Shown: in pieces, positions 2,584-16,209 of the stretch | Layout: the number at the start of each line of letters is the position of its first letter | How positions within the stretch are numbered: position 1 is the stretch's first letter | DNA from: CBDUXZ01 sp965371325 [NCBI: uncultured bacterium] | GTDB lineage: Bacteria; JAUYMQ01 | Direction of reading: 5' to 3' | DNA: 19,340 nt | Assembly (NCBI GenBank): GCA_965371325.1 | Contig: CBDUXZ010000001.1 | Coordinates: forward strand, 1-19,340 | The notes under the pieces: generated by a model | What the model was told of the DNA's origin: nothing | Databases searched by the model: none | Seen by the model: the letters and a program-made list of their open reading frames with translations, nothing else | Position numbers and translations under genes: made by a program

Positions 2584-3168
2584 ATGGTGATTCTCCGTAG
2601 GCGAAAATTCATCATCAACAAACACCTGCAGTACCGATTCGCCCTGTTGAGCATTTTTTATGTGGCTGCTTTCCTTTCGGTTCTTGGCGCCGCGCTTTTC
2701 ATCCCGCTCGCGATCCAGATGGAGACTATCGATTTAAACCTCGATGCGCATCTTTACGCGGCGGATCGGTTCCTCTATCTGCACAAGGTTTTCTGGCCGG
2801 TGGCCCTCGCCAGCATTTTCACGATATGCGTTCATGCCATTTATGTCTCGCACAGGCTTGCAGGGCCGCTCTATCGTCACATGCGTACCTTTTCGGACGT
2901 TGCAGATGGAAAAATCCCGAAGGCTGTGCGTATCAGAGAAAAAGATTACCTCAAGGAAGAAACGGAAATCATCAACGCCATGCTGAAAAGCCTTCGGGAG
3001 GAAATTGGAGGGCTTCAGGAAGAACAGGCGGAGATGACCGTCCTGATCTCCGGGCTTGGTGATGCGACACGGGGGGGCTCGGAGGAGGAGATCCGGAAAG
3101 CTCTCCTTGCCGTTTCAGAAAAAGAGAAGGAAATTGCCGCCAGGCTGAACAGTTTCAAGGTCGAGTAG
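2584..3168 (+). CDS. Two-TM HAMP-like membrane signalling protein without output domain
   Basis: A 194-residue protein with two predicted membrane helices (about 19-42 and 69-89) and a short segment between them. Straight after TM2 comes a HAMP-like linker: SHRLAGPLYRHM (about 89-100), ADGKIP, then a charged segment and EIINAMLKSLREEI. The remainder (about 130-194) is predicted helical and rich in Glu and Lys, probably coiled coil. No methyl-accepting, kinase or GGDEF output domain follows, so it may signal by protein contact. HAMP-type proteins with the HRxAGPLYR motif, encoded beside pilin-like genes, occur in deltaproteobacteria. The frame is open from 2422, but the ATG at 2584 is preferred: it sits just after GGGCGAGGGG and begins with a basic stretch (VILRRRK) typical before TM1. 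The prepilin gene follows 23 bp downstream. Family assignment is moderate; the partner is unknown. Confidence 0.75.
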   Translation: MVILRRRKFIINKHLQYRFALLSIFYVAAFLSVLGAALFIPLAIQMETIDLNLDAHLYAADRFLYLHKVFWPVALASIFTICVHAIYVSHRLAGPLYRHMRTFSDVADGKIPKAVRIREKDYLKEETEIINAMLKSLREEIGGLQEEQAEMTVLISGLGDATRGGSEEEIRKALLAVSEKEKEIAARLNSFKVE

Positions 3169-3191
3169 CGAAAACCGTACGGGTATAGTTT

Positions 3192-3692
3192 ATGGGGTTT
3201 CGGTGTCGAGGGGTCAGGTTGGATAAGAGACTGCTGCCATGCGTCGCGGGGGCAAGCCCGTCGGGCTTTACCCTCATCGAGCTTCTGGTGGCGATGGCGG
3301 TCATAGGAATTCTGGCCTCGATTGCGATCCCCAACTATCTCCGGTTTCTGGATCGCGCGAGAATAGGCCGGGCGAGGGCGGAGCTTCAGGGCATCGCCAG
3401 GGTCCTGGATGCGAATAAGACAACCGAGGTAACGCTTCCCGTCGTGCTCGCGGAAGTCGGTGAAGGCGGGAAGATAGATCCCTGGGGGAACCCCTACGTC
3501 TACCTGAACCTGGTTCTGTTCCCGGGCGGCGCGAGACTCGACGGGGGCGGGAACCCGCTGAACACGGACTACGACCTCTACAGTCCCGGCCTGGACCATG
3601 TGACTTCGGTCGATATCACCAACCCCCCGAGCGTGGACGATGTGGTCCGCGGAAGGGACGGCGCCTTTTTAGACATTTCCAGCCATTACTAG
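3192..3692 (+). CDS. Type II/IV prepilin (GspG/PilA-like pseudopilin)
   Basis: A pilin-like protein with the class III signal of type IV pili and type II secretion. After a short basic leader, the prepilin peptidase site lies between Gly25 and Phe26, followed by FTLIELLVAMAVIGILASIA, with the conserved Glu at mature position 5 (residue 30). The hydrophobic N-helix is followed by a globular domain carrying DPWGNPY (about 97-103) and DYDLYSPGLD (about 126-135), which resemble the calcium-binding C-terminal part of major pseudopilin GspG. The ATG at 3192 has a poor ribosome site. A TTG at 3219, with GAGGGG just upstream, would give a 16-residue leader closer to the family norm and may be the real start. 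It is an orphan, with no ATPase or secretin gene in the window, but lies directly behind the HAMP-like gene. It could serve a pilus or a secretion pseudopilus. Confidence 0.9.
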   Translation: MGFRCRGVRLDKRLLPCVAGASPSGFTLIELLVAMAVIGILASIAIPNYLRFLDRARIGRARAELQGIARVLDANKTTEVTLPVVLAEVGEGGKIDPWGNPYVYLNLVLFPGGARLDGGGNPLNTDYDLYSPGLDHVTSVDITNPPSVDDVVRGRDGAFLDISSHY

Positions 3693-3748
3693 GCCTCATC
3701 GCACCCCTTCCGCGCGTTAGCCCCGGAGGCGCACGCCGGACCGTCCTC

Positions 3749-4561
3749 TCAGAGCCCGTGATTGGGCCAGGCGGGCTTCAGGTTTTTGTCGATGAAGGAC
3801 TGTGCGCCGTAGCTGTGCTTGTCTTTCCGAAGGAACATCGAGAGCACCATCTCCGCCTCGATTCGAAGCCGCTCTTCCATCGTTCGGCCGACACCCCGCA
3901 TGACGGATTCCTTGTCTGATCGGATCGCGCCCTGGGGCAGCTCGGCGATGCTGCGGGCCAGCTCCAGCGCGCGTTTGTAAGCGCTCCCCGCCGGCACGAT
4001 CTCGTTCACAAGGCCGAGCCTGTAAGCTTCATGAACGTCTATCCGCCGACCCGTTATGATGAGCTCCATGGCGTGGGCGTAACCCACGATGAGCGGCAGG
4101 CGTACCGTGAGGCCGTCGCCGCCGACAATGTTCCAGCGCCGCTCGAGCGCGCCGAACTCGGCGTTCTCGGCCGCAATGCGAATGTCGGCCAGCAGGGCGG
4201 TCTCGAAACCCGCCGCGAAGGCGTAGCCGTTCACTGCGGCGATGATCGGCTTGAAGATGTCGGCGCGGCGCGTGTAACCGCAGTATCCCTCCGAGTTATA
4301 GACATCGACCCGGAACTGATCGAATGTGCCCATGTCCGTCAGCGCGGCCGCGTCGTTCAGATCCCACCCCGCCGAAAAAGACTTGTCGCCTGCGCCCGTC
4401 AGGATGGCGACGAAGGCGTCTTCATCATCCCTGAATCGCTTCCAGGCGTGCTGCAGATCGCTGTTCATGACCGTGTTGATGCAGTTGTGCTTCTCCGGAC
4501 GGTTCAGCCGGATGGTGACGACGTGTTCATCCTTTTCATACTGAATGGTCGTGTACTTCAC
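3749..4561 (-). CDS. Enoyl-CoA hydratase/isomerase (crotonase family)
   Basis: A 270-residue crotonase-fold enzyme that would hydrate a 2-enoyl-CoA in beta-oxidation or a branched-chain pathway. The two oxyanion-hole segments are present: KSFSAGWDL (60-68) and IIAAVNGYAFAAGFE (106-120). Both catalytic glutamates of hydratases can be aligned, Glu140 in GALERRWN and Glu165 in HAMELIITG, so true hydratase chemistry is possible. The start is a GTG at 4561, supported by a perfect AGGAGG 7 nt upstream. The gene lies 64 bp downstream of a second crotonase gene on the same strand and probably shares its transcript. It converges with the prepilin gene; the 56-bp gap between them shows no clear terminator. 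Acyl chain specificity cannot be told. Confidence 0.9.
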   Translation of the reverse strand: MKYTTIQYEKDEHVVTIRLNRPEKHNCINTVMNSDLQHAWKRFRDDEDAFVAILTGAGDKSFSAGWDLNDAAALTDMGTFDQFRVDVYNSEGYCGYTRRADIFKPIIAAVNGYAFAAGFETALLADIRIAAENAEFGALERRWNIVGGDGLTVRLPLIVGYAHAMELIITGRRIDVHEAYRLGLVNEIVPAGSAYKRALELARSIAELPQGAIRSDKESVMRGVGRTMEERLRIEAEMVLSMFLRKDKHSYGAQSFIDKNLKPAWPNHGL

Positions 4562-4568
4562 GGTGGCA

Positions 4569-4574
4569 CCTCCT
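4569..4574 (-). promoter_or_regulatory. Ribosome binding site AGGAGG deciding a GTG start
   Basis: A perfect Shine-Dalgarno sequence on the minus strand, 7 nt before the GTG at 4561. No upstream in-frame ATG competes with it, so it fixes the start of the crotonase gene. Confidence 0.8.
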
Positions 4575-4625
4575 CTGGAACCAGGGCATCGATAAAATCT
4601 CCCGCGAGCTTCACGCGCGGGGGCT

Positions 4626-5543
4626 TCAGGTTTTCTTCGCCCAGGGCGGTTCGGGGCTGATCACGTTTTCTCGCCCGGGCTGGCGGCCGGCCGGCGCCTG
4701 GCTGTAGTCGCCGAAGAGGGCGTCACGCTCCTTGATCGCCGCTCCGACGCCTCCCTTGGCCGCGGTTTCGATGAAGCCGAGCGATTCGGGAATGTTGCGC
4801 ATGTAGCCGTCGAGGATCGGGCCGAGCGTTTGCGTGCTGTGCAGCCCCATGTTCTCGTAGGCCTGGTTGACGATGAGCTTCATTGCCGCGAGCTGGGCTG
4901 GAGGAAGCGTCGCAAGCCGCTCGGCCGCGGCGCGCACTTCGTCCTCCAGCTTGGCGAAGGGGACGGCCTTGTTGATGAGTCCGATCTCCACCGCCTTCTT
5001 CCCGCTTAACGCTTCGCCGGTCAGGGCAAGCTCTTTCACCTTCGTGAGGCCCAGGCGGTAGATCCACATCCCCGTCAGGTAGCAGCCCCAGGCGCGGGAG
5101 TAGGGCGTGCCGATCTGCGCGTCGTCCGAGGCGATGACGAGATCCGCGCACAGCGCCATGTCGGAGCCGCCGCCCACGCACCAGCCGTGAACCTGGGCGA
5201 TCACCGGTTTGGGAGTGCGCCACAGGCTCATGAACTTCGGGACCGGCGCTGTGAAGGGGCTCGTCGCGAGCACCATGTCCTTGCCGGGATCCCACCGGCC
5301 ATCCGTGGTCAGGTATTCCTTGAAGTGACCGAAGTCGTCTGAAAAATCGAAGCCCGCGCAAAACGCGCGGCCGGCGCCGCGGAGCACGATGACGCGCACG
5401 CTCTCATCGCGGGTCGCCTTCGCCACCGCCGACTCAATCTCGTCCGGCATGGGAGGCACAATCGTGTTCAGGCGGTCCGGCCGGTTCAGCGTGATGGTCG
5501 CAACCGGACCGTCCACCCTGTAGAGTAGGGTCTCGTAACTCAT
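4626..5543 (-). CDS. Crotonase-family protein with one catalytic Glu replaced
   Basis: A 305-residue crotonase homologue. Oxyanion-hole segments are visible at RAFCAGFDFSDD (59-70) and VIAQVHGWCVGGGSDMALCADL (about 114-135). The position of the first hydratase glutamate is Tyr148 (IGTPYSR), whereas the second is kept as Glu171 (KVKELALTG). This pattern argues against ordinary hydration and is compatible with isomerase, hydrolase or other crotonase reactions. An insert around residues 75-105 and a proline-rich tail make it longer than the usual 260 or so residues. The frame stays open to 5597, but the ATG at 5543 has AGGAG just upstream and starts the family sequence SYETLLYRVDGPVATITLN. It is divergent from the alcohol dehydrogenase gene at 5675 and upstream of the other crotonase gene. 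Confidence 0.88.
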   Translation of the reverse strand: MSYETLLYRVDGPVATITLNRPDRLNTIVPPMPDEIESAVAKATRDESVRVIVLRGAGRAFCAGFDFSDDFGHFKEYLTTDGRWDPGKDMVLATSPFTAPVPKFMSLWRTPKPVIAQVHGWCVGGGSDMALCADLVIASDDAQIGTPYSRAWGCYLTGMWIYRLGLTKVKELALTGEALSGKKAVEIGLINKAVPFAKLEDEVRAAAERLATLPPAQLAAMKLIVNQAYENMGLHSTQTLGPILDGYMRNIPESLGFIETAAKGGVGAAIKERDALFGDYSQAPAGRQPGRENVISPEPPWAKKT

Positions 5544-5674
5544 ACTGGCTCCTTTCAGTGGGCTCGGGCGTGAAAGCCCTCCCGCCATGGATATCATGAA
5601 GGCCCTGTTGAAGTGAATGGGGCGGCGCGCCGGAGGGGGCGGCCCCAGGGACGCAACGCCAGAGGAGGCAATAG

Positions 5675-6712
5675 ATGACCACCGTCCGCCGGGCGCGTTT
5701 GACGAAAATCGGCTGGGAAGACGATCTGGAAATCGAAAGCGCGGAAGAGGAATTTGCGCCGCCCGAAGGCAATCAGGTGCGCGTGGAAGTGGAAGCCTGC
5801 GGGGTGTGTCACCGCGACTGCATCGATCGCTCGGGACGCTTCAAGTTTATCCAGATTCCCGTGACGCCGGGGCATGAGGCGGTCGGCCGGGTGATAGGGG
5901 TCGGGCCCGACGTGACGGACTGGAAAATGGGCGACCGGGTCGGAACCCTGCACCGCGATTTTTGCGGGTCTTGCGGCCCCTGCAGGGATGGAAGCGCGTC
6001 GCTCTGCGAGAGCGCCGCAGCACTCCTCGGTTTGATCATCGACGGCGGTTATGCGACGCACATGGTTGCGCCGGAAAGGTGCTTCTTCGTAGTGCCCGAG
6101 GGGGTGCCGGCCGCCGAAGCGGCCGTGCTTCATTGCACCTTCGGTACGTCTTACCGTGGATTCCGGCGATCGGGGCGGGTGGAGGAGGGCCGGCACGTGC
6201 TGGTCACGGGCGCCAACGGCGGCGTGGGAACCGCAGCCATCCAGGTTGCGCGCCGCATGGGCGCGAGCGTGACGGCGGTGGTGCGTGGGGAAGGACAGGA
6301 AGCGTACGTGCGTGAGCTGGGCGCGGATAACGTGGTTGTCGATCCGGGCGACGGCTTTCACAAGAAGCTGACTGGCCCCGCCGACGTGGTCATGGAGTGC
6401 GTGGGCCAGCCGACTTTCAATGCATCGTTAAGAGCCCTCCGCCCCGGCGGCTGCGTCATTGTGGTGGGCAACGTGGTGCCGGAGCCCGCGTCGGTAAACC
6501 TGGGCCTCATCGTCACAAAGGGGCTCCGGATCATGGGAAGCAGCGGGGCCACGCGGGAAGACATGAAGGCGCTCCTGGCGATGCACGAGAAGGAGCCCTT
6601 CTCCGTGCAGATCCAGGAACAGGTGGACCTGCAGGAAGCCGATCGCGCGCAGCGGCTGGTGCAAGCGGGCGGCCTTCAGGGACGGATTGTGGTCGTTCCA
6701 AAGCGGGGGTAA
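5675..6712 (+). CDS. Zinc-dependent medium-chain alcohol dehydrogenase
   Basis: A 345-residue MDR-superfamily oxidoreductase that would interconvert an alcohol and an aldehyde or ketone with NAD(P). Catalytic zinc ligands are recognisable as Cys45 (CGVCHRD), His67-Glu68 (GHE) and Cys154 (LHCTFG). The structural zinc lobe has all four cysteines: Cys97, Cys100, Cys103 and Cys111. The nucleotide-binding Rossmann segment is HVLVTGANGGVGTAAIQVA (about 174-192). The ATG at 5675 follows GAGGAGG, which fixes the start. It is transcribed away from the crotonase pair across a 131-bp gap and converges with the AhpD-like gene, with only 8 bp between the stop codons. Substrate unknown; context suggests an alcohol or aldehyde intermediate of acyl catabolism. 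Confidence 0.93.
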   Translation: MTTVRRARLTKIGWEDDLEIESAEEEFAPPEGNQVRVEVEACGVCHRDCIDRSGRFKFIQIPVTPGHEAVGRVIGVGPDVTDWKMGDRVGTLHRDFCGSCGPCRDGSASLCESAAALLGLIIDGGYATHMVAPERCFFVVPEGVPAAEAAVLHCTFGTSYRGFRRSGRVEEGRHVLVTGANGGVGTAAIQVARRMGASVTAVVRGEGQEAYVRELGADNVVVDPGDGFHKKLTGPADVVMECVGQPTFNASLRALRPGGCVIVVGNVVPEPASVNLGLIVTKGLRIMGSSGATREDMKALLAMHEKEPFSVQIQEQVDLQEADRAQRLVQAGGLQGRIVVVPKRG

Positions 6713-6720
6713 CGCGGCGG

Positions 6721-7812
6721 CTACTCGCTCGCCGGAAGGGGCACAAGGAAAGAAAGGAAAGCCTGACCCCCCAGGAGGCGCCGCAGGCGGGCCCACTGGT
6801 TGGCGTGGGCGATGGCGATGGCGAGCTCCAGGATGCCCCTGTCGTCGTAGCCCTCCCGGTGGAGCGCGTTGATCATCGCTTCGCTGCTCCGGTACGCGTA
6901 TCGCGTGCCGACGAAGGCGAATGCCTCCACGGGATCTTCCGGCCGCGCGTGCAGCCCCTCCGCTTCCTCCGCCGTGGCCGGAAGCGCATCCTCGACGGCG
7001 CGATCAATGCGCGCAAGGACCGCCGCGTCCAGGTTTGAGCTCTCCCGCTCCTCCAGCATGATCTGTATTGCCTCGACGAGCGTGGGGCGGTTGCGGAGCG
7101 CCTCGAGATCGTCTTTCAGCGCCCTTCCTACCACCCGTTCGAATACGGGAGCAACTCCCTCGAGCGCTTCGTCATAACTTTTATCGTAGGGGCGCGTCGA
7201 CAGATCCATCGCCTTACGGAAGAGCAGGGCCGCGCCCTTCCCCGCGAACTGCCTCAAGGGCTCGAAGCGCCGCAGCCCTTCGGGGAGCCCCTCGGGATCG
7301 ACGTCGAGCAGATCCGCGACGCGGTTCACGAAATGAAATCCCGCCACAACGAGGGCGTAGTCGAGTGCCGAGTCCCCGACAAGAGCCCGCAGCGCGTCGA
7401 GGTCACCCGTTGAAAGCAGTTTTGGCTGCGCCTGCGCTTTGCGGGCAAGCGCGGTCAGCGCCAGCTCGAGCGGCGTGGCGTTGCTTGCCTCCCCCTCCAG
7501 CAGCTTGTCGGCGCGGGATGCCTTTCCCCCCGCCGCTTCCATCATGGCCTCGTGGGCGTCGGTGCAGTAGTGGCAGTCGTTCAGGCGCGATACGAGCGAT
7601 GCGAGCAGTTCGCGCGTCGTGCGCGGCTCGTCTCCCGACCAGCTCGATAACTCCCAGAGCCGGATCATGCGCCGCATCGATTCGGGCTTGAGGCTGAAGA
7701 TCCGGATCACGTTCGGGATCAGTTTTGTCTCCGCCATCTCGCCCATGTATCGGTAGACTGCGGCGGTCTCGCCGGTTGCCTTGCGGGGAGAAACGACTTC
7801 GATGAATGCCAT
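6721..7812 (-). CDS. AhpD-like (carboxymuconolactone decarboxylase family) protein with degenerate second half
   Basis: A 363-residue protein whose first half is an AhpD/CMD-type all-helical domain with the redox motif Cys80-His-Tyr-Cys83 and His87 (DCHYCTDAHEAM), as in peroxidase-type alkylhydroperoxidase proteins. It is followed by the typical helix LDYALVVAGFHFVNRVADLL. The second half appears to repeat the fold: RYAYRSSEAMINALHREG (about 315-332) and GILELAIAIAHANQWARLRRLL align with these two blocks but lack both cysteines. Single-domain members are about 150-200 residues, so this looks like a fused tandem with an inactive C-terminal copy. The start is the ATG at 7812 with AAGGAG upstream, although the frame is open to 8040 inside tetR. 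It is the last gene of the minus-strand set, 79 bp behind tetR. Likely role: thiol-dependent peroxide or electrophile handling. Confidence 0.8.
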   Translation of the reverse strand: MAFIEVVSPRKATGETAAVYRYMGEMAETKLIPNVIRIFSLKPESMRRMIRLWELSSWSGDEPRTTRELLASLVSRLNDCHYCTDAHEAMMEAAGGKASRADKLLEGEASNATPLELALTALARKAQAQPKLLSTGDLDALRALVGDSALDYALVVAGFHFVNRVADLLDVDPEGLPEGLRRFEPLRQFAGKGAALLFRKAMDLSTRPYDKSYDEALEGVAPVFERVVGRALKDDLEALRNRPTLVEAIQIMLEERESSNLDAAVLARIDRAVEDALPATAEEAEGLHARPEDPVEAFAFVGTRYAYRSSEAMINALHREGYDDRGILELAIAIAHANQWARLRRLLGGQAFLSFLVPLPASE

Positions 7813-7852
7813 GGCGATCTCCTTGCTCTTATTTATTTCCGCCCTGTATCTC

Positions 7853-7870
7853 CGATGCCGCATGGCGTCG
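7853..7870. other. Small inverted repeat between tetR and the AhpD-like gene
   Basis: Arms CGATGCC and GGCGTCG (one G-T pair) around a GCAT loop lie in the 79-bp gap between the two genes. No T-run follows, so it is not a clear terminator. It could be an intercistronic hairpin. Confidence 0.3.
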
Positions 7871-7891
7871 GGCGTTGCGAATCCCGGGTGA

Positions 7892-8527
7892 TTAATCGAA
7901 CTGTCGAACGGGATAACCCAGGTAGGCGGAGAGGCAGGCCGTGACCTCCTGGATGTAAAGCGCCTCGTCCTCGCCCTTTCTGCGCAGGAAACACTCCCGG
8001 AGCGCGGACTCCACGAGGCCGTACTGGACAGCCGCCGCAACGCGCGTGTTCATGGGGGCTATCAGTCCCCGGCGGACCCCGTCCTCGAGCTGGACCTCGA
8101 TGGCGGCGATCATTTGCGTCCGGTTTGCTTCCAGCGCGGGAGCGCCTTCCGTGGGCTCGGAGGCCAGCAGAAAGGCCGCCAGCGGCCCCCCGCTGTTTCG
8201 CACATAGTCGAAGATGCTGCGGACCATCGTCCCCATGTCGCGGGGATCGATGCGCTGATCAAGGTCGCCGAAGGCCGCCTCGACGAGCCCTCTCCCGTAT
8301 TGATCTCCCACGGCGACAAGCAGCCCCTGCTTCGACCCGAACTGGTGGTAGAGGGTGCCTTCCGCTACGCCGGCTGCCTTCGCCACGCGGTCCATGCGGG
8401 CGCCCCGGAACCCCCGGCGGGCGAACTCCCGCGCGCCCGCCTTGAGGATCCGCGTACGGCGGCCCTCGGGATCCTGACGCCAGGTGCGGCGTCGCGTGTG
8501 AGGCTTCGTGGACGTTGCGCCGCTCAT
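7892..8527 (-). CDS. TetR-family transcriptional regulator
   Basis: A 211-residue repressor-type protein. The N-terminal TetR DNA-binding domain is clear: RILKAGAREFARRGFRGARMDRVAKAAGVAEGTLYHQFGSKQGLL (about 26-71), with the helix-turn-helix ending in GTLYHQFGSK. The rest is the variable helical ligand-binding domain. The ATG at 8527 overlaps the stop codon of the iron-sulfur/SCP2 gene as ATGA, with GGAG 6 nt upstream, so it is translationally coupled to an enzyme of the set it probably controls. Likely target: the two palindromes at 11852-11904 in front of the operon, giving negative autoregulation. Its ligand is probably a substrate or CoA ester of the pathway. The DNA-binding role is certain; target and ligand are inferred. 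Confidence 0.93.
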   Translation of the reverse strand: MSGATSTKPHTRRRTWRQDPEGRRTRILKAGAREFARRGFRGARMDRVAKAAGVAEGTLYHQFGSKQGLLVAVGDQYGRGLVEAAFGDLDQRIDPRDMGTMVRSIFDYVRNSGGPLAAFLLASEPTEGAPALEANRTQMIAAIEVQLEDGVRRGLIAPMNTRVAAAVQYGLVESALRECFLRRKGEDEALYIQEVTACLSAYLGYPVRQFD

Positions 8528-10185
8528 GAAGCGCTCCGCTTCGCGCGGTCTGTGAGGAGGCGCTTTATCGCCCGCTTCGCATACCAGGCGGCGCGATGGA
8601 AAAGAGAGCTACCGGGGGTATTGGCGAGTATGGCGGGGAAGGTGAGGAAGAGCTTCCTGTTCCCCGAGAGCTTGATCCGTCCGAGCAGGAGCTGAACAAC
8701 TGCGCTCGTCTCCTCCCGGTGAACCGCCAGGAAGAGTTCTCCCGGACACCGGACCGTCAGATCCGGGTTTTCGATCTCGCCCGGATAGACCTGGCACTGC
8801 CGGTTGGCGACGCGCATGACCCATCGTCCGCCCCCCTCGCCTGTAAAATCATACTGGCAGGTAAAGTCGAGGCCCGCCGCCTCCGTGCCCCGGAAGTAGT
8901 GGGGCATGTTGCGCATCATCGAATCGATGTTCGAGACGCGAATCCGCTCGAGCTCGACGAGGCGAACGACGGGGTGGCCGGGCCTTCGTCGCTCTGGGGG
9001 CGTGCGCCATTCGCCGGGCGGGATGTTGTGCTTCTCCCGGGCGCTCGGCGTGTCGATGACGAATTGCTGATCGGCCTCCCGCCGCGCCTGGTTCAAAGGC
9101 TTCAGCTGCGTATCAAGAACCTTCCGCCGCCCTTCCTTGCTTCCCTGAAAGATCTTCTCGATGTCGGCGGGGCAGACGGAAACACAGTTGAAACAGCGAT
9201 ACTCCACCCGGAAAGCGAGTGACTGCCAGAGCGATGCAATCTCGGCGTCGGTCCAGCGCTTCTCGAACCTCTTCGGATTCGCCGCGCCCAGATCCCGTAC
9301 GAGATCCATGAACCCGGGAATGGAATCGCGATAGGTGTGGTTGTAGCAGGCGAAGAAATCGAACTCACCGTCGCTCTTGATGGCGTCGGTCGGGCATCCC
9401 GCGACGCAGAGGTTGCATTTCAGGCACGGGTTCCACGCGATCGGCGTGTCCATCTGCTCGCTTGGAAAATCGAGGTTTGTGATGACGGTGTCGATGAGGC
9501 AGTAGGCGCCGAATTTCCGGTGCAGGAAGTTTCGGCTGAGCCCGATGACGCCGAGGCCGGCCGCCTGGGCGACGAGCCTGTGGCTGAGGGGCCAGATCTT
9601 GTCGGCCCAGCGCTGCGAAACTTCCTGGGGCCAGCCGATGGTTGTCGTGAGCCCCGCCCCGCCGAGGGATTCGAGGATGTCGACCGTCTTGCGGCCCATT
9701 TCGAAAACCCGCTCCTCGCAGGTGTAGAGTTCGTGATTGGCCGACGGCAGGTAACGCGACTGCATCGCCGCCTGGTTCTCTTTTCCAATCAGGCAGACGA
9801 GTGTTTTCGCGTGGGGATAGATGTAGAGAATTTCGTCGCGCTCGTGGGCGAGCGCAGGGTCATCGACGGAGATGATGCCCACGTCGTCGGCAAAGGTGGC
9901 GATTTTCCGCTTGAACTCCTCCGCCGAAATCGGCGAGACGACGTGGCGCGGCGTGACGTGGTGATCATCGATGGCGTCGATGTCGACAAAGGGCCAGCGC
10001 ATCTCCGTGCGCCGGGGGAGCTTTAGCGCCTTCGGCCTCCCCGGTGCGGGGAAGGGGAACTTCCAGTCCTTTGAAGAGTTCCGGTGTCCGTGGGGTGTTG
10101 CCGGGCCCACGTCGCTCTCCGGCCCGGGCTCACCCTCACGGCCCTTTCGCTCGTACCGACCTTCTACGCGTGCGCGTGTCGCCAT
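8524..10185 (-). CDS. QueG/RdhA-like iron-sulfur protein with C-terminal SCP2-like domain
   Basis: A 553-residue protein with an unusual domain order. Residues 1-60 are a charged, Pro/Arg-rich extension. Residues about 65-250 resemble the cobalamin-binding part of epoxyqueuosine reductase and reductive dehalogenases, including AGLGVIGLSRNFLHRKFGAYCL (209-230). A 2[4Fe-4S] module follows: Cys254, 257, 260, 264 (CLKCNLCVAGCP), then Cys280, then Cys331, 334, 338 (CFNCVSVCP), which is the QueG arrangement. Residues about 420-525 look like a sterol-carrier SCP2 domain (RWVMRVANRQCQVYPGE, PDLTVRCPGELFLAVH). No twin-arginine signal is seen, so it is probably cytoplasmic. The ATG at 10185 has GGGAG 6 nt upstream and lies 13 bp after the oxidoreductase stop; the next in-frame ATG (10002) has a poorly placed site. 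The combination suggests a reductase acting on a lipid held by the SCP2 domain. Substrate and bound corrinoid are not shown by the sequence. Confidence 0.82.
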   Translation of the reverse strand: MATRARVEGRYERKGREGEPGPESDVGPATPHGHRNSSKDWKFPFPAPGRPKALKLPRRTEMRWPFVDIDAIDDHHVTPRHVVSPISAEEFKRKIATFADDVGIISVDDPALAHERDEILYIYPHAKTLVCLIGKENQAAMQSRYLPSANHELYTCEERVFEMGRKTVDILESLGGAGLTTTIGWPQEVSQRWADKIWPLSHRLVAQAAGLGVIGLSRNFLHRKFGAYCLIDTVITNLDFPSEQMDTPIAWNPCLKCNLCVAGCPTDAIKSDGEFDFFACYNHTYRDSIPGFMDLVRDLGAANPKRFEKRWTDAEIASLWQSLAFRVEYRCFNCVSVCPADIEKIFQGSKEGRRKVLDTQLKPLNQARREADQQFVIDTPSAREKHNIPPGEWRTPPERRRPGHPVVRLVELERIRVSNIDSMMRNMPHYFRGTEAAGLDFTCQYDFTGEGGGRWVMRVANRQCQVYPGEIENPDLTVRCPGELFLAVHREETSAVVQLLLGRIKLSGNRKLFLTFPAILANTPGSSLFHRAAWYAKRAIKRLLTDRAKRSAS

Positions 10186-10198
10186 GGCGTACTCCCAT

Positions 10199-11797
10199 TC
10201 ATTTGCGTTTTCTGGTGCGTTTCTTGGCGGCGGTCATGATGGCCGTCATGATTCTGAAAAACCCGAAGGGACCCATGACGGCGCTCGCAGCCGCCAGCCC
10301 ACCCATGGTTGCCCCCACCAGCCCGTGGAAGTAGACATCCGAGCCTGCCAGGTAGAGGTTCTTCACGGGTGTGCGAACGCCGAGCCACTTTTGCCGAAAA
10401 CGCTCCGGGGTCCCCGCCAGGCCGTAGATCGCGCCTTCGGGGCTCCGCATGAAATGCTCGACGCTGAGCGGCGTTGAGACTTCCTGGTATTCGACGAGAT
10501 CGCCGAAGCCGGGAAACTTTTTCTCGACCAGCCCCAGAAGGCCCGCGGCAATGCGATCCTTCAGGGCGCCGTACTCCTTGCCCCGGTCCATCCAGGGACG
10601 ATCGGCCCAGCGCTTGAAGGCGCCGTAGTCCGTTATCGCCACGATCTCCGCCGTATGGATGCTCGCCTTCGGGTCTTTCAGGGAGGGGAAGGAGAGATAG
10701 CAGGCGACGGGGTTCCCCGAAAAGGCGCTTTCGCTCTCCCGATCGCCGTCGTGATCGTAGCTGTCGGCGATCCAGTAGTTCTCCCCCCGGAAACCGAGGC
10801 GCGCGGGGCTCTCCTTGAAGCTCACGTAGAGCGAGACCGCGCTGTTGCCCGGCAAGAGCGTGTTCAGCTTGTCGAGGAAGGGCGCCGCCGTCTCCCGCGG
10901 AATGAGCTTCGCGTAGGTGGTGTGGGCGCCGGCGCCGGAGATCACCACCGGGGCGAAGTAAGTATCGGTGAGGTCCCGGCCCCCCTTCCGGTGGACGACT
11001 TCCACCCCCTTAGCGGCGCCGTTCTCGACGAGCACGCGGGTGACGCGGTGGCGCGTGAGGCACTTTCCGCCCTGCTTCTCGATGACGGGCATGATGTTCG
11101 AGGCGATCGCATGGGCGCCGCCGACCGGGTAGTAGCCGCCCCGCAGATAGTGATCGACGATGATCGCGTGGGAGAGGAACGCGCTCCTGTCGGGTGGCAT
11201 GCCGTGGTCTTTCCATTGCGAGACGAGCGTGGCCTTGAGCTTCGGATCGCGAAAATGTTCATCGAGGTAGTCTTTGGTGATGGTCAGGGCGAGCCGTTTC
11301 CCGGCGCCGCCGGGGCCGAGCAGGAGATCGCGAAGCGGGAAGGGGAGGGTGTCGCCGACGAAGCGGCGGCGGCCCCAGCCGACCGCCTTCCCGATGTCCC
11401 GGAAGTATCGTTCAATTGCGGCCTCTTCGTCAGGGAAGCGGCTGATGAGATCTCTTTTGAAACGTGCCGGCTCACCGTGGAGCTCGAAGGTGAAGTCCGG
11501 GTACACGAAGCGCTCGAAGGGCTCGTTCATCCGCGTCCACTGGATCCCGCCGTCGCTGATGAAGTCCATGATGGCGCGGGGATCGCGCCCCTCGCCCATG
11601 TCGCCGATGTAGTGGATGCCCACGTCCCAGGTGAGGTTCCCTGGACGCTTGAACTCGTGGGTGAAGCCGCCGGCGACATAGTGCTGCTCGAGCAGGAGAA
11701 CGCGCTTGCGCCCCAGCTTCGCAAGGACGCTGGCGGCCGTGAGTGCGCCGATTCCCGAGCCAATCATGATCGCGTCGTAATGGTTGTTCTGGGTCAT
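10199..11797 (-). CDS. FAD-dependent oxidoreductase of the phytoene desaturase / retinol saturase (CrtISO) type
   Basis: A 532-residue flavoprotein. The N-terminus has the dinucleotide-binding motif AIMIGSGIGALTAASVLAKLG (about 9-29), the ribose-binding Glu37 (LLLEQH) and VAGGFTHEF, as in CrtI, carotenoid isomerase and retinol saturase. The C-terminal FAD motif NLYLAGSDVYFHGLVGATMGG (about 480-500) is also present. A hydrophobic stretch and a strongly basic tail (AAKKRTRKRK) end the protein, suggesting peripheral membrane attachment. Relatives saturate, desaturate or isomerise double bonds in carotenoids and other polyprenoid or lipid substrates. The ATG at 11797 is preceded by GAGG. It heads the minus-strand set behind two putative operator/promoter units, and the iron-sulfur/SCP2 gene follows after 13 bp. 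No carotenoid synthesis genes are nearby, so the substrate is open. Confidence 0.9.
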   Translation of the reverse strand: MTQNNHYDAIMIGSGIGALTAASVLAKLGRKRVLLLEQHYVAGGFTHEFKRPGNLTWDVGIHYIGDMGEGRDPRAIMDFISDGGIQWTRMNEPFERFVYPDFTFELHGEPARFKRDLISRFPDEEAAIERYFRDIGKAVGWGRRRFVGDTLPFPLRDLLLGPGGAGKRLALTITKDYLDEHFRDPKLKATLVSQWKDHGMPPDRSAFLSHAIIVDHYLRGGYYPVGGAHAIASNIMPVIEKQGGKCLTRHRVTRVLVENGAAKGVEVVHRKGGRDLTDTYFAPVVISGAGAHTTYAKLIPRETAAPFLDKLNTLLPGNSAVSLYVSFKESPARLGFRGENYWIADSYDHDGDRESESAFSGNPVACYLSFPSLKDPKASIHTAEIVAITDYGAFKRWADRPWMDRGKEYGALKDRIAAGLLGLVEKKFPGFGDLVEYQEVSTPLSVEHFMRSPEGAIYGLAGTPERFRQKWLGVRTPVKNLYLAGSDVYFHGLVGATMGGLAAASAVMGPFGFFRIMTAIMTAAKKRTRKRK

Positions 11798-11848
11798 CGC
11801 TTCGATCCTCGGGCCCGAACACCGCCCGGTTCCGCGGCCCTGGCAGGG

Positions 11849-11877
11849 CTCTTAATTGAGCCTGTCTCAAATGTGAA
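11849..11877 (-). promoter_or_regulatory. Candidate promoter 1 with operator in spacer
   Basis: On the minus strand TTCACA (11877-11872, five of six matches to TTGACA) and TAAGAG (11854-11849, weak) are 17 bp apart. The spacer holds the palindrome TTGAG-N5-CTCAA. It lies about 50 bp before the oxidoreductase start. A repressor bound here would exclude RNA polymerase. Confidence 0.45.
11852..11872. repeat. Direct repeat copy 1 containing palindrome TTGAG-N5-CTCAA
   Basis: A 21-bp sequence identical to 11884-11904, 32 bp away start to start, about three helical turns. The 5-5-5 palindrome core (11856-11870) has the size of TetR-family operators. The likely binder is the TetR protein encoded at 7892-8527. 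Confidence 0.8.
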
Positions 11878-11880
11878 GCG

Positions 11881-11909
11881 AGTTTAATTGAGCCTGTCTC
11901 AAATTGCAA
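11881..11909 (-). promoter_or_regulatory. Candidate promoter 2 with operator in spacer
   Basis: On the minus strand TTGCAA (11909-11904) and TAAACT (11886-11881) are separated by 17 bp. The second copy of the palindrome fills the spacer, as in candidate promoter 1. Either promoter could start transcription of the oxidoreductase, iron-sulfur/SCP2, tetR and AhpD-like genes. Confidence 0.5.
11884..11904. repeat. Direct repeat copy 2 containing palindrome TTGAG-N5-CTCAA
   Basis: The second exact copy of the 21-bp element, with palindrome core at 11888-11902. Two identical sites on the same DNA face suggest cooperative binding by two repressor dimers. Confidence 0.8.
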
Positions 11910-11947
11910 GACGGTTTTCCCTGTAAACGGGCGATAAATTCGGGGCC

Positions 11948-11961
11948 CGTGCGAGCGCACG
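11948..11961. other. GC hairpin downstream of the CoA-transferase gene
   Basis: CGTGCG and CGCACG flank AG, forming a small strong hairpin between the CoA-transferase stop (11998) and the promoters at 11849-11909. A perfect palindrome ATTCATGAAT (11976-11985) lies beside it. There is no run of T directly after it, so a role in transcription ending is possible but unproven. Confidence 0.35.
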
Positions 11962-11997
11962 AATTCCCTGAATTCATTCATGAATTTAGAGTGGGCC

Positions 11998-13197
11998 CTA
12001 AGCTACGGTTCCCCTTTCGCGCATGGACGCGATGGCCTCCCCGCCGTAACCGAGTTCGGCGAGAATGCTGTCAGTGTGCTCGCCCGGCATGGGCGCGGGG
12101 CCCTGGGGGCTGGCGGGGGTGGCGGAGAAACGAGGCGCGGGGAGGGCCTCACGCAGGGGGCCGGCGGTCGGGTGCTGGGTTTCGCGAAGCGAGGCGTTCG
12201 CCTGGACCTGCGGGTGGGTGTGCACGTCGTCGAGGGGCACGATGAGCGCGTGCGGCACGTCGTGTTGCTCGTACAGCGCGCACCACTCGGCCGTTGTCTT
12301 GGAGGCAATCATTTCCGTGACGAGTTTGAGCAACTCCTTCGTGTGGCTCATCCGGCCGAAGATCGAGCTGAAACGAGGATCGTCGATCAGATCCTGTCTG
12401 TCGGCCGCGCGGCAGGCATTGATCCACTGCTCGTCCGTCAGCGCCGAGATCGTCATGGCGCCGTCGGCCGTCGCGTAGACGCGGTAGATGGTGGAGAAGG
12501 GCGGAATGCGCATGACATCTTCCCCCAGGAAAGTATGGTTCATCATGCCGTCGGGCCACAGGAACGCGAGCGCCACGTCGAGCATGGCGATGCGCACATG
12601 CTGCCCGCCACGGCGGCGCTCCCGCGCCAGAAGAGCTGCCGTAACGGCCTGCGCCGCGGTGTACGCCGTCGCCTTGTCGAGGGAAAGGTTGCGCACCAGC
12701 TCGGGCTCCCCGGTCTCGGGGTTTGCCTGGACCGAGGCCATGCCGCTGATGGCCTGGACGATGTTGTCGTACACCGGGCGCTTGGACATGGGTCCCGTGT
12801 CGCCGAAGCCGGATATCGACAGATAGATGATGTCCGGCGAAATGGCCTGCACGGCTTCGTATCCGAATCCCATCCGTTCCGCGACACCCGGTCGGAAATT
12901 CTGGATGAAGACGTCGGCGCCATCGCAGAGCTTGCGAAGAATCCCCTTCCCCTCATCGGTACGGAGATCCAGTGTCATTGTGCGTTTGCTGCGGTTCATG
13001 TTCACGAAAGTCGAGGACACCCCCCCGCTAATCGCGCCGAACATCCGCATCGGATCTCCCATACCGGGCGCTTCAACCTTGATGACGTCCGCTCCCTGGT
13101 CTCCCAGAATCATCGTCGCCAGCGGCCCGCTGATCATCGCGGTCAGATCGACAATGCGTATGCCCGCAAGCGGGCCCGAATGATGGGTGGTCGTCAT
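11998..13197 (-). CDS. Class III CoA-transferase (CaiB/BaiF family)
   Basis: A 399-residue enzyme of the formyl-CoA/carnitine CoA-transferase family, which moves CoA between carboxylic acids through an aspartyl-CoA thioester. The N-terminus GIRIVDLTAMISGPLATMILGDQGADVIKVE is the family signature. The catalytic Asp is probably Asp174 in NLSLDKATAY. SISGFGDTGPMSKRPVYDNIVQAISG (about 127-152) and the GRGGQHVRIAMLD-type segment (about 198-208) also fit. Length is normal. The ATG at 13197 has GGAGGAGG 5 nt upstream. It is divergent from the amidase gene and ends about 200 bp before the oxidoreductase start, separated by the operator region, so it is probably a separate transcript. It would activate an acid for acyl-CoA degradation. 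Acid specificity cannot be read. Confidence 0.92.
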   Translation of the reverse strand: MTTTHHSGPLAGIRIVDLTAMISGPLATMILGDQGADVIKVEAPGMGDPMRMFGAISGGVSSTFVNMNRSKRTMTLDLRTDEGKGILRKLCDGADVFIQNFRPGVAERMGFGYEAVQAISPDIIYLSISGFGDTGPMSKRPVYDNIVQAISGMASVQANPETGEPELVRNLSLDKATAYTAAQAVTAALLARERRRGGQHVRIAMLDVALAFLWPDGMMNHTFLGEDVMRIPPFSTIYRVYATADGAMTISALTDEQWINACRAADRQDLIDDPRFSSIFGRMSHTKELLKLVTEMIASKTTAEWCALYEQHDVPHALIVPLDDVHTHPQVQANASLRETQHPTAGPLREALPAPRFSATPASPQGPAPMPGEHTDSILAELGYGGEAIASMRERGTVA

Positions 13198-13317
13198 GGC
13201 TTCCTCCTCCAGGGCTGGTTGCTCATCCTAGGTTGACGCGTCGGTGCTTGGCAAGGCGGGGGATGGCCGCGCGTCGCGAGGTCTTGCCGCAACCCTGCCA
13301 TCTCCTCGTGAGGCTTT

Positions 13318-13346
13318 TTGACCTCCATGAGGGGATGTCGTAAGAC
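13318..13346 (+). promoter_or_regulatory. Candidate promoter of the amidase gene
   Basis: TTGACC (13318-13323, five of six matches to the -35 consensus) and TAAGAC (13341-13346, weak -10) are 17 bp apart, about 75 bp before the amidase start in the 225-bp divergent gap. The segment also holds two similar short dyads, CCTCGTGAGG and CCTCCATGAGG. Confidence 0.3.
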
Positions 13347-13422
13347 ATACGGAAGCGATCAGCATCGAAATTCAGCCGGTCCTACCGCTGTGCCTACAAT
13401 CCTGATTGAAGGAGCTGTCGAC

Positions 13423-14877
13423 ATGAAATCTTCAGAGTACGCCTCCTATGATGGTCTCGGCCTCGCCGGGCTGATCGCCAAAGGAGAGGTCACGCCGACC
13501 GAGACGGTCGAGGCGGCGATTGAGCTGACCGAGAAACTGAATCCCGCGCTGAACGCCGTCATTCACAAACACTACGAGCGCGCCCGCGAGGAGGCGGGTG
13601 GCGCGTTGCCCGAGGGGCCGTTTCGGGGCGTGCCGTTTTTGCTGAAGGATCTCGGCGCCGGAAACCGTGCAGGCGATCCAAACCACTGGGGAACCCGTTT
13701 TCTGCGCGACGCCGACTTTCGTCCGCCGACGACTTCGTACCTGGTCGAGAAGTTCACGCGGGCCGGGCTCGTTGTCACCGGCCGCACGAACGTTCCCGAG
13801 CTAGGCGCCTGGGCATCGACCGAATCCCAAGCCTACGGCCCCTGCCGCAACCCCTACAACACCGAGCACTCGACCGGCGGTTCGAGCGGCGGCGCCGCCG
13901 CGGCCGTCGCCTCGGGAATAGTGCCGCTCGCACATGGCAGCGACGGGGGCGGCTCCATCCGGAACCCCGCCAGCCAGTGCGGGCTTGTCGGACTCAAGCC
14001 GACCCGCGGAAGAATTTCCCTCGGCCCCGATGGCGGGGAGTTCTGGGCGGGCATGGCCTTCGAGTTCGCGGTGACACGCAGCGTGCGCGACACCGCGGCG
14101 CTCCTCGACTGCGTCCACGGTATGATGCCGGGCGATCCCTACGGCGCGGTGCCGCCCGAGCGTCCCTATGCGCAGGAGGTGGGCGCTGAGCCGGGATCGC
14201 TGCGCGTCGGCCTGCTGTCGACCCACGAAGATGTGAGGGTGCACCCGGACTGCGTCGCGGCAGCCGAGGGGGCGGCCCGCCTGCTCGAGAGCCTTGGACA
14301 CAAAGTGGAAGCGTCGTATCCGGAGGAGCTCGCCACTTCGGTGCTCACCGAGCACGCCATTGCCGTCGTCGCGGCCAATCAGGCGCGCATGGTCGAACTC
14401 ATGGGCGGGCTGGTGGGGCGTGAGGTGGGGCCGGTAGACATGGACAGCGACAACTGGGCGGTGACGGAGCTGGGCCAGCACGTCACCGCAGGCCGCTACC
14501 TCGCCGCCATCGAGATCTATCACAGGTTCCAGCGACAGGTGGCTGCATGGTGGGCCGGCGGCTTCGACCTGCTCGTCACGCCGACGCTCACGGACCCGCC
14601 GCCCCCGATCGGCGAGTTCCTTCCGGACCCGGCGGCCCCCCTTGACGCATTCACGCGCTCGGGCCAGCTACTGACCTTCACGATTCCGTTCAACGTGACG
14701 GGCCAGCCGGCGATATCGCTGCCGCTTCACTGCAGCGACACGGGGCTACCGATCGGTGTGCAACTGGTCTCCGCCTTTGGGCGCGAAGACGTCCTCATCC
14801 GGGTCGCATCGCAGCTCGAGGAGGCCGTCAACTGGGGCAGCCGCCGGCCGTCGGTTCACGCCTCGAGCGCGGCTTGA
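13423..14877 (+). CDS. Amidase-signature hydrolase, NylA-like
   Basis: A 484-residue amidase of the Ser-cisSer-Lys family, which hydrolyses amide or cyclic amide bonds. Lys75 (VPFLLKDL), Ser154 in the TGGSSGG loop and the nucleophile Ser178 (HGSDGGGSIRNPAS) form the expected triad. The 24-residue spacing of the two serines matches fatty acid amide hydrolase. The overall pattern, including YDGLGLAGLIAKGEVTPTE, GLKPTRGRISLGPDG and PFNVTGQPAISLPL, closely recalls 6-aminohexanoate cyclic dimer hydrolase (NylA), though natural substrates are likely other amides. The ATG at 13423 is chosen because GAAGGAG lies 8 nt upstream; the frame is open from 13318. No signal peptide is seen. It is divergent from the CoA-transferase gene; together they could release and activate an acid. 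After its stop the same frame runs into a dehydrogenase remnant. Confidence 0.92.
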   Translation: MKSSEYASYDGLGLAGLIAKGEVTPTETVEAAIELTEKLNPALNAVIHKHYERAREEAGGALPEGPFRGVPFLLKDLGAGNRAGDPNHWGTRFLRDADFRPPTTSYLVEKFTRAGLVVTGRTNVPELGAWASTESQAYGPCRNPYNTEHSTGGSSGGAAAAVASGIVPLAHGSDGGGSIRNPASQCGLVGLKPTRGRISLGPDGGEFWAGMAFEFAVTRSVRDTAALLDCVHGMMPGDPYGAVPPERPYAQEVGAEPGSLRVGLLSTHEDVRVHPDCVAAAEGAARLLESLGHKVEASYPEELATSVLTEHAIAVVAANQARMVELMGGLVGREVGPVDMDSDNWAVTELGQHVTAGRYLAAIEIYHRFQRQVAAWWAGGFDLLVTPTLTDPPPPIGEFLPDPAAPLDAFTRSGQLLTFTIPFNVTGQPAISLPLHCSDTGLPIGVQLVSAFGREDVLIRVASQLEEAVNWGSRRPSVHASSAA

Positions 14878-14925
14878 AGGCAGAAGAATCGCCGGCATGG
14901 ACATGCGGGAGAAGAGGCCACGCCC

Positions 14926-15039
14926 ACGCAAACGGTCGTCATTAGCGGATTAGGCCGGGGGATCGGCCGCGAGGTGGCGAAACGCCTGGCCGCCGCCGAT
15001 CATACGATGGCCGGGTTCGACGTCGACGCGGCACGCCTC
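14926..15039 (+). pseudogene. Truncated short-chain dehydrogenase (SDR) N-terminal remnant
   Basis: Reading from about 14926, the plus strand encodes TQTVVISGLGRGIGREVAKR, then a stretch ending AGFDVDAARL. This is the first beta-alpha-beta unit of an SDR enzyme, with the glycine-rich GxxxGIG motif and an acidic residue after strand two. Only about 38 residues remain. Homology stops at about 15039, at the stop codon of the convergent acyl-CoA dehydrogenase gene (15038-15040), and the frame ends at 15061. In this frame no ATG, GTG or TTG lies between the amidase stop and the motif. The nearby ATGs at 14897 and 14903 are in another frame that ends at 14953, so the start is frameshifted or lost. 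It marks an old rearrangement or deletion behind the amidase gene. Confidence 0.7.
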
Positions 15040-16183
15040 AGTAGGACTCGGCCTTGGCGATGATCTCGTTCATGATCTCGCGGGTGCCGCCGCCGATGGG
15101 GTAGAGCCGCGCGTCGCGGTAGAGGCGCTCGACGACGGTCTCGCGCATGTAGCCGTAGCCGCCGTGGATCTGCACGGCCTGATCGCAGACCCAGGAGCAC
15201 ATGTCCGTCGTGGCGTTCTTGGCCTGGGCCGCGAGGAGGTTGGCCTCCTCGCCGTTCAAGTGGCGCATCACGCACTCGCCCGTGAGGGCGCGGCCCGCGG
15301 CAATGCGCGTTGACATGTCGGCGAGCTTGTGGCGCGTGACCTGAAAGCCGGTGAGGGGACGTCCGAAGGCCTCGCGCTCACGGGCGTACTTCCTGGCTTC
15401 ACGGTAAGCGAGCTCCGCGATCGCCACGCACTGACCGGCAATCCCGAGCCGTTCGGTGACGAAGTTCATCATGATGGCGAGGAAGCCCTGGTTCTCCTCC
15501 CCGATAAGATTAGCCACCGGAACGCGGCAATCCTCGAACGTCAGCTCCGCCGTGTCGCTGGCCCACCATCCGGTCTTGTGCAGCTTGCGCGAAACGGTGA
15601 AGCCTGGCGTACCGCGCTCTATCACGAGAAACGAGATGCCGCCGTGCTGCGGCCCGCCGGTGCGGACCGCAGTCGTGACAAAGTCGGCGCGGCAGCCGGA
15701 CGAAATGAAGGTTTTTGCGCCATTCACGATGTAGTGATCGCCGTCGCGCACGGCGCGCGTTTGCAGTGAGGCAACGTCGCTGCCGGCTCCCGGCTCCGTG
15801 ATCCCCAGCGCGGCTATCAACTTCCCCTCGAGAACCGGGCGCACGAAACGCTCCTTCTGCTCGGGGGTCCCCAGGCGGGCGATGGGCGGCAGAGCGATGC
15901 CGTGCGTGCCGAGCCCCACCGTTGTGCCGACGGACTTCCCGGCCAGGATCATCTCCTCGCCGGCCACCAAACCGTGCGTGAAGTTCCCTCCGGCTCCGCC
16001 AAGCTCCTCCGGATAGCTGAGGCCGAGGAGCCCGGCCTCGGCGGCTTTCTTGTACATCTCGCGCGGGAACTCCTCCGCCTCGTCCCACTCCGCCGCGTGG
16101 GGCTCTATCTCGGCGGCCGCAAAGCGCCGGATCTGCTTTCGGAGCTGCGCGTGATCCTCGGTTTCGAAGAAATACGTGCCCAT
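15038..16183 (-). CDS. Acyl-CoA dehydrogenase, isovaleryl/long-chain subtype
   Basis: A 381-residue FAD enzyme that would introduce a 2,3 double bond into an acyl-CoA, passing electrons to ETF. The family signatures ALGITEPGAGSDVASL (125-140) and QIHGGYGYMRE (338-348) are present. The usual catalytic Glu of the IYEGT motif is Gly365 here (PIGGGTREI). Instead Glu244 in NFVTERLGIAG sits where isovaleryl-CoA and long-chain acyl-CoA dehydrogenases carry their base, which places the enzyme in that subgroup. The ATG at 16183 has AGGAGG upstream. It follows the biotin carboxylase gene by 26 bp and is the third gene of the carboxylase operon. With a 3-methylcrotonyl-CoA carboxylase alongside, isovaleryl-CoA (leucine breakdown) is the likely substrate. 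A saturated acyl-CoA of other origin remains possible. Confidence 0.93.
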   Translation of the reverse strand: MGTYFFETEDHAQLRKQIRRFAAAEIEPHAAEWDEAEEFPREMYKKAAEAGLLGLSYPEELGGAGGNFTHGLVAGEEMILAGKSVGTTVGLGTHGIALPPIARLGTPEQKERFVRPVLEGKLIAALGITEPGAGSDVASLQTRAVRDGDHYIVNGAKTFISSGCRADFVTTAVRTGGPQHGGISFLVIERGTPGFTVSRKLHKTGWWASDTAELTFEDCRVPVANLIGEENQGFLAIMMNFVTERLGIAGQCVAIAELAYREARKYAREREAFGRPLTGFQVTRHKLADMSTRIAAGRALTGECVMRHLNGEEANLLAAQAKNATTDMCSWVCDQAVQIHGGYGYMRETVVERLYRDARLYPIGGGTREIMNEIIAKAESY

Positions 16184-16209
16184 CGGTCCCTCCTAAAAGT
16201 TTTCCCTTC

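Follow-up and report, generated by a model that had tools for sequence, protein, structure and literature searches.

The 19,340-nucleotide stretch analysed here (the window; contig CBDUXZ010000001.1 of CBDUXZ01 sp965371325, positions 1 to 19,340) encodes an iron-sulfur protein, related to the epoxyqueuosine reductase QueG and the reductive dehalogenase RdhA, that ends in an SCP2 domain and is called FeS-SCP2 here. Comparison with its relatives gives good support to a conserved unit consisting of the FeS-SCP2 gene and one dedicated regulator, repeated with different regulators. This unit, the pairing of regulator and operator, the exchange of regulators, the fold homology and the cluster cysteines all emerge from sequence comparison. 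The best explanation, for which we have a modest preference, is that FeS-SCP2 is a class-III-type reductase whose substrates are hydrophobic molecules, that a repressor of its own keeps it off until a ligand induces it, and that in the window an enzyme dependent on flavin adenine dinucleotide (FAD) has joined the unit.

Candidate operator and its presumed regulator

GTDB contigs, scanned with an alignment of three rows, yielded 371 relatives of FeS-SCP2; among the best 80 of these 371, which were kept, 7 are close (59-71% identical) and the rest are 29-36% identical. In the class of genome G002, where 148 genomes were searched, close FeS-SCP2 genes (E<=1e-100) are found in 13; together with L006 (genome G001) and L009 (genome G004), these give 15 close loci besides the window. 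Among 145 relatives of G001 searched at E<=1e-80, FeS-SCP2 was found in G001 alone. The distant set comprises 75 loci (L001, L002 and L013-L085).

The candidate operator of the window is a tandem repeat whose copies are 81% identical, each with one perfect palindrome, TTGAGCCTGTCTCAA, 32 bp apart. The pattern TTGAGN5CTCAA is found exactly at the promoter in all seven close loci with a TetR of the window's type (type A: the window, L006, L008, L010, L124, L127 and L128), and it is absent, over the whole loci scanned, from all nine close loci without one, of which L009 has a single similar site with two mismatches. Since the exact palindrome recurs with the window-type TetR in 6/6 other loci and in 0/9 without it, the double operator is more than chance. 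In all seven type A loci the TetR gene lies right behind FeS-SCP2. The window TetR contains the TetR_N domain (61.5 bits) and the other six are 33-58% identical to it, so that a recognizable TetR and a palindrome conserved alongside it occur together. The FeS-SCP2 stop codon overlaps the TetR start in six of the seven (five ATGA, one GTGA; starts read by eye); in the window the overlap is at 8524-8527. The double operator, its link to the TetR, and the coupling of this TetR to the FeS-SCP2 gene by an ATGA overlap, all of which had been put forward from the window alone in the original prediction, thus hold up.

The closest relative, L006, has two palindrome copies with the same 32-bp spacing as the window and, read by eye, a similar promoter layout, with TTGCAA, 17 bp and TAGCCT. 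In both, again by eye, the upstream palindrome copy fills the 17-bp spacer between TTGCAA and the -10-like hexamer. A scan of positions 6500-12100 for terminator-like sites gave 6, against 5.0 expected. Six whole genomes together contain eight exact copies of the palindrome, and seven of these are at the FeS-SCP2 promoter. The reversed control pattern also gave eight matches over the same genomes, so it is the location of the palindromes and not their number that is informative; with seven of eight at this one promoter, the type A TetR appears to act locally, on one main target. A further exact site in G001 lies away from FeS-SCP2 (L144; G001:C528:5175-5189).

Exchange of regulators and distribution of the family

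Eight of the nine close loci that lack a type A TetR (L007, L011, L012, L121, L122, L123, L125 and L126; all but L009) carry an unrelated TetR, type B, placed upstream on the same strand (2.1 kb off in L007) or divergently (L012); its representative in L122 matches TetR_C_33. A different palindromic motif, AACRGTGTYAA, overlaps the apparent start of the type B TetR in 8/8 loci; it was derived from those eight sites, and the 1.7 Mb of loci contain no further instance of it. The motif covers the apparent GTG start, which suggests that transcription of the type B TetR may be leaderless and autorepressed. Imperfect extra copies seem, by eye, to lie between TetR and FeS-SCP2 in L011, L125 and L126. 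On the tree of the family, some forks of which are weakly supported, two changes are required for either type of TetR, which means that at least one exchange of regulator took place within the close clade. One of the type B loci, L012 (G007:C225), has an FeS-SCP2 gene whose two pieces lie in different frames, one of them interrupted by an in-frame TGA; this copy is a pseudogene or an assembly error.

The association with a regulator extends to the distant loci. A regulator lies within 1.2 kb of FeS-SCP2 in 61/75 of them, MarR in 52 and TetR in 9, with 64 regulator hits in the 171 kb near the distant FeS-SCP2 genes vs 14 in the 773 kb farther off; the models behind these hits were built from those same loci, and the MarR and TetR identities were Pfam-checked on one representative each. 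A plasmid copy in Priestia has a regulator matching TetR_C_13. The commonest neighbour within 7 kb other than a regulator is an SDR, found in 11/75. Because regulators recur and no other neighbour exceeds 11/75, the family appears to be mostly one enzyme with one dedicated regulator.

The family is spread over about 15 phyla and has members in the culturable genera Priestia, Brevibacillus, Methylococcus and Nostoc; the annotation of three plasmid copies says no more than "SCP2 sterol-binding domain-containing protein". One metagenome-assembled genome, OFTM47, contains a close-type copy (L007, 62%) and a distant-type copy (L082, 32%) together, and since both are in one assembly the close and distant branches are paralogues there.

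Structure and family membership of FeS-SCP2

The alignment used for residue comparisons (A3) has 50 rows: the window, 13 of the 15 other close loci and 36 of the 75 distant ones. Left out were L012, with its two frames, and L123, with a stop flagged in the matched range; L001 and L002 are also outside it, as are L018, L019, L056, L061 and L077, whose matched ranges contain a stop that in most cases is simply where the gene ends.

By several kinds of comparison, the N-terminal part of FeS-SCP2 has the class III cobalamin fold, a nitroreductase-like cobalamin domain followed by a ferredoxin region with two [4Fe-4S] clusters, as in QueG (TIGR00276; 5d6s, 5d08). Foldseek relates it to the QueG/RdhA superfamily fold at E 2.8e-8, and hhalign to QueG with a probability of 99.3%. 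In structural comparison, VIA matches QueG 5d6s with Z 16.6 (3.6 A over 210 residues) and the reductive dehalogenase PceA 4ur3 with Z 16.4 (3.4 A over 225 residues); RdhA proteins (PceA 4ur3, NpRdhA 6zy1) share the fold at Z about 15-16 and likewise have two clusters. The region of residues ~415-524 in VIA matches SCP2 domains with Z 10-16.5 (about 15 for the SCP2 part) over ~100-110 residues. This fold is that of the SCP2 domains of human MFE-2 (1ikt), of the C-terminal part of the alkylsulfatases SdsA1 and Pisa1, and of UbiJ (6h6p), which differ in that here the domain is fused to an iron-sulfur reductase module. Pfam PF02036 recognizes SCP2 in the window protein at 22.5 bits, over the cut-off of 21.3, and in P0005 at 38.2 bits. 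The predicted architecture of a QueG/RdhA-like iron-sulfur protein carrying an SCP2 domain is therefore sound.

The ligands given for the QueG clusters in PMC4646009 are C184, C187, C190 and C243 (distal) and C194, C210, C236 and C239 (proximal). Their counterparts in the window protein are in register, C254, C257, C260 and C338 for the distal cluster and C264, C280, C331 and C334 for the proximal one, and all eight are present in 14/14 close rows. The core motif of the cobalamin domain, AGLG...GxxRN...FG, is also kept, and the element AGLG-x-x-G-x-x-x-N is shared with QueG. Over all 50 rows N150, E152, E188, W198 and H202 are invariant.

These likenesses do not make FeS-SCP2 a QueG or an RdhA. 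The window protein reaches 53.8 bits with the QueG model TIGR00276, below the cut-off of 200, and 22.4 bits with the RDH model TIGR02486, below the cut-off of 160.35; two distant members reach 49.0 and 59.8 bits with the QueG model, far below its cut-off. PMC4646009 also places the QueG active site at a D100-Y101-H102 motif and D130; in FeS-SCP2 the DYH motif is absent from the window protein and the equivalent of D130 falls at an ambiguous alignment position. Where QueG has a C-terminal HEAT domain, FeS-SCP2 has SCP2, and it has its own repressor; from RdhA it is set apart by the SCP2 domain, by its score and by the lack of a catalytic tyrosine, which in PceA is Y246. In 22/24 FeS-SCP2 genomes a true QueG, over cut-off, is encoded separately. 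With scores far below both cut-offs, the tyrosine lost and a separate QueG present, FeS-SCP2 is a relative of QueG and RdhA that belongs to neither.

Proposed function

We infer repression and induction, the path of electrons, the involvement of cobalamin and the class of substrate as follows. A TetR dimer would bind the TTGAG-N5-CTCAA palindromes at the promoter and block transcription of FeS-SCP2 and of its own gene, and probably a hydrophobic ligand would release it; the private regulators are what suggest induction by a small ligand. Electrons would enter at the distal [4Fe-4S] cluster (C254, C257, C260, C338), pass to the proximal one (C264, C280, C331, C334) and go on to the nitroreductase-like domain, whose redox centre would, judging from homology, be a base-off cobalamin; this centre would reduce a hydrophobic substrate that the SCP2 domain delivers to it. 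The chain of clusters, the cobalamin-domain fold and the SCP2 domain together suggest such a reduction. In the window, an FAD oxidoreductase of the CrtI/RetSat superfamily would be co-induced with the core gene.

To our knowledge only two functions are known for the QueG/RdhA superfamily. Within the open-licence part of PubMed Central (PMC), no paper was found that joins SCP2 with epoxyqueuosine reductase or reductive dehalogenase with sterol carrier protein, and among the matches listed from its broader literature no title or abstract start describes an SCP2-bearing member. The family is large, widespread and apparently undescribed. A tentative proposal, plausible but on balance doubtful as a whole, is that FeS-SCP2 proteins form a third functional branch of this class III corrinoid superfamily, SCP2-fed and ligand-induced reductases acting on hydrophobic molecules, found in about 15 phyla and mostly accompanied by a private regulator, which has been exchanged repeatedly (for MarR and for TetR of at least three subfamilies). 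In the wide branch, the cysteine missing from the proximal cluster would leave an iron site open next to the corrinoid pocket, and this site could join in catalysis. A common, apparently undescribed relative with a lipid-binding domain and a probably ligand-responsive switch of its own would widen the substrate range of QueG/RdhA-type enzymes. The private regulator also makes the substrate discoverable, in that whatever molecule releases TetR from its operator is likely to be the substrate itself or closely related to it.

Several observations count against the ligand-induced reductase and its private repressor. Cobalamin, catalysis and substrate are read indirectly, from homology. The AlphaFold model (built with 50 sequences) is of moderate confidence, with a mean predicted local distance difference test score of 72, mostly 50-70 in the ferredoxin part, and a predicted template-modelling score of 0.64. 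No invariant tyrosine precedes C254 in the 50 rows, so the QueG/RdhA catalytic tyrosine is not kept, and the position of C331 is Ala (31) or Ser (5) in 36/36 sampled distant rows, a split that on the tree matches a long-branched clade with 100/100 support. For both these reasons, part of the family may work unlike QueG and RdhA. On the side of regulation, a consensus promoter scan of positions 6500-12100 returned no site, the promoter read by eye being below threshold; L009 has neither TetR type; and in 14/75 distant loci the 1.2 kb around the gene are free of regulators, two of these loci having <200 bp of upstream DNA. Finally, FAD and FeS-SCP2 genes are on different contigs in 4/4 genomes of the G002 group that have both.

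Alternative functions

The alternative that survives best, though it seems unlikely, is an RdhA-like detoxification of xenobiotics, in which an inducible enzyme would reductively cleave hydrophobic compounds that are halogenated or epoxidised. The closest folds include RdhA, the RDH model gives 38-48 bits for the two distant members scanned, and the presence of MarR, TetR_C_33 and LmrA/YxaF-like TetR regulators on one kind of gene looks like control by toxic small ligands; some rdhA genes have MarR-type regulators. The low RDH score of the window protein and the missing tyrosine argue against this, as does the finding that the neighbours recurring in >=3/75 loci, most of them unnamed, include no anchor or halogen-related gene that was seen.

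Rather unlikely, too, is a corrinoid-free protein of electron transfer and lipid delivery, whose clusters feed electrons to another oxidoreductase, which in the window would be the FAD enzyme, while SCP2 ferries the substrate. The replaced active-site residues of QueG and RdhA, the cluster ligand lost in the 36 sampled distant rows and the co-encoded FAD enzyme would all suit such a protein. It is opposed by the lack of a widely recurring partner redox gene, the SDR being the commonest candidate, and by the retention of the cobalamin-domain core motif.

The original prediction, of a pathway in which the FAD enzyme, FeS-SCP2, TetR and the AhpD-like protein work together on a single lipid (sterol, hopanoid, carotenoid or polyprenyl), now appears improbable. 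In its favour, all four genes lie in a row on the minus strand behind the operator, and TetR_C_33-type regulators, related to each other, stand beside an FAD gene (L133) and an FeS-SCP2 gene (L122) of relatives. There is also a weak co-occurrence in genomes: among 98 relatives of G002, an FAD gene (E<=1e-80) is present in 4/13 with a close FeS-SCP2 vs 4/85 without (Fisher one-sided p 0.01, uncorrected for kinship), a count that equally favours the reading preferred here, with its added FAD enzyme. Against it, the FAD gene adjoins FeS-SCP2 in 0/15 other close loci (with upstream DNA of <=~1 kb in L006, L012 and L125), and in L006 the operator runs straight into FeS-SCP2 with no FAD gene between. 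An FAD gene of 24% identity adjoins FeS-SCP2 on the opposite strand in the distant locus L039; this is not counted as conservation. The AhpD-like gene has no counterpart next to FeS-SCP2 in the other 15 close loci, and 0/8 loci of AhpD-like relatives (~4 kb each) hold a window-like FAD, FeS-SCP2 or TetR gene. On these neighbourhoods a conserved FAD, FeS-SCP2, TetR and AhpD operon is rejected. The original prediction had named lack of conserved adjacency as what would refute it; by that standard the operon fails, and FeS-SCP2 with a regulator holds.

Hopanoids, among the substrates then suggested, were examined through co-occurrence with the squalene-hopene-cyclase model PF13243 (E<=1e-20), which related cyclases also match; G004, the genome of L009, is outside the close-clade count, and the comparison group is the first 14 class rows without a close FeS-SCP2. 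A match is found in 6/14 close-clade FeS-SCP2 genomes vs 14/14 of the comparison group, and in 7/10 genomes with the distant type, one of them weak (6.6e-23). Because it is missing in 8/14 close-clade genomes, hopanoids are disfavoured as the general substrate of FeS-SCP2, absence from draft genomes being weak evidence; the same count tells against the four-gene lipid pathway. Matches occur in 0/6 type A TetR genomes and 6/8 type B genomes, which may only mirror kinship.

A second tRNA epoxyqueuosine reductase, a QueG paralogue acting on RNA, is very improbable. In its favour, QueG is the best structural and profile match to FeS-SCP2. Against it, DYH is absent, SCP2 replaces the C-terminal HEAT domain, and the low score (53.8 bits vs 200) together with the separate true QueG led to the rejection of a QueG duplicate.

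The FAD oxidoreductase and the AhpD-like protein

The FAD gene appears, from the loci compared, to have been added to the core unit of FeS-SCP2 and regulator in the window only, of the 16 close loci. Its product (P0001) exceeds the Pfam cut-offs for Amino_oxidase, NAD_binding_8 and FAD_binding_2, and it matches the carot_isom and crtI_fam models over nearly its full length; it is below every NCBIfam cut-off listed (carot_isom 112.3 vs 586.9; 98 vs 549.7; crtI_fam 68.9 vs 238.1), which places it outside the CrtI/CrtISO desaturases and isomerases. A likeness to retinol saturase is presumed, as in the original prediction. Among 11 FAD loci compared (L003-L005 and L129-L136), a TetR lies directly beside the FAD gene in five, a feature that sets the relatives of the window's FAD protein apart from CrtI, CrtISO, CrtD and retinol saturase. 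It precedes the FAD gene in L133-L136, where the L133 TetR matches TetR_C_33 and the other three are 60-75% identical to it, and follows it in Tistrella (L004). A GTATAC-type palindrome is seen by eye at the TetR ATG start in L133-L136. With TetR adjoining 5/11, FAD genes of this group would often be switchable themselves; in the window, where the FAD gene sits between operator and FeS-SCP2, both would be under the type A switch, and it is a reasonable inference that the two enzymes share the same or a related ligand or molecule.

The AhpD-like gene is probably outside the regulated unit. Its most likely start is the ATG at 7812, with AAGGAG ahead, in place of the TTG at 8040 of the mechanical open reading frame. 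The protein (P0004) contains a CMD domain (31.2 bits, cut-off 23) and passes TIGR01926 (86.4 bits vs 81.8), with CHYC at residues 80-83; compared with the family described by TIGR01926 and NF041238 it has this CHYC and an extra C-terminal half, and reaches 59.7 against the NF041238 cut-off of 175. Relatives (E<=1e-40) are present in 7/148 genomes of the G002 class, and in 7/8 of the best of them there (L145-L151 among the loci) an in-frame TGA takes the place of the second Cys codon, giving CxxU. Judged from these sequences, this is a family of selenoproteins, represented in the window by a form with Cys.

Layout of the window

The domain scans agree with the names first given to the FAD, FeS-SCP2, TetR and AhpD-like genes, whose positions are collected in Table 1 with those of the other features.

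Table 1. Features of the regulated unit and its surroundings in the window
Feature	Position	Strand	Remarks
FAD-dependent oxidoreductase (CrtI/CrtISO/retinol-saturase-like, basic C-terminal tail)	10199-11797	-	532 aa; Pfam/NCBIfam scans
FeS-SCP2 protein, core gene	8524-10185	-	553 aa; QueG/RdhA-like ~82-375, SCP2 ~415-524
TetR repressor (type A), presumed cognate of the TTGAGN5CTCAA operator	7892-8527	-	211 aa
AhpD-like (CMD) thiol protein with CHYC, probably outside the unit	6721-7812	-	363 aa
Tandem 32-bp operator repeat (64 bp)	11852-11915	.	palindromes at 11856-11870 and 11888-11902
Possible promoter, TTGCAA - 17 bp - TAAACT	11881-11909	-	read by eye
Class III CoA-transferase, upstream neighbour, outside the unit	11998-13197	-	end 82 bp from operator repeat

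Farther off, positions 15038-19316 encode an acyl-CoA dehydrogenase, a biotin carboxylase of the MCC-alpha type and a carboxyltransferase, all on one strand, and positions 3749-5597 encode enoyl-CoA hydratases; together these look like genes for acyl-CoA carboxylation and degradation.

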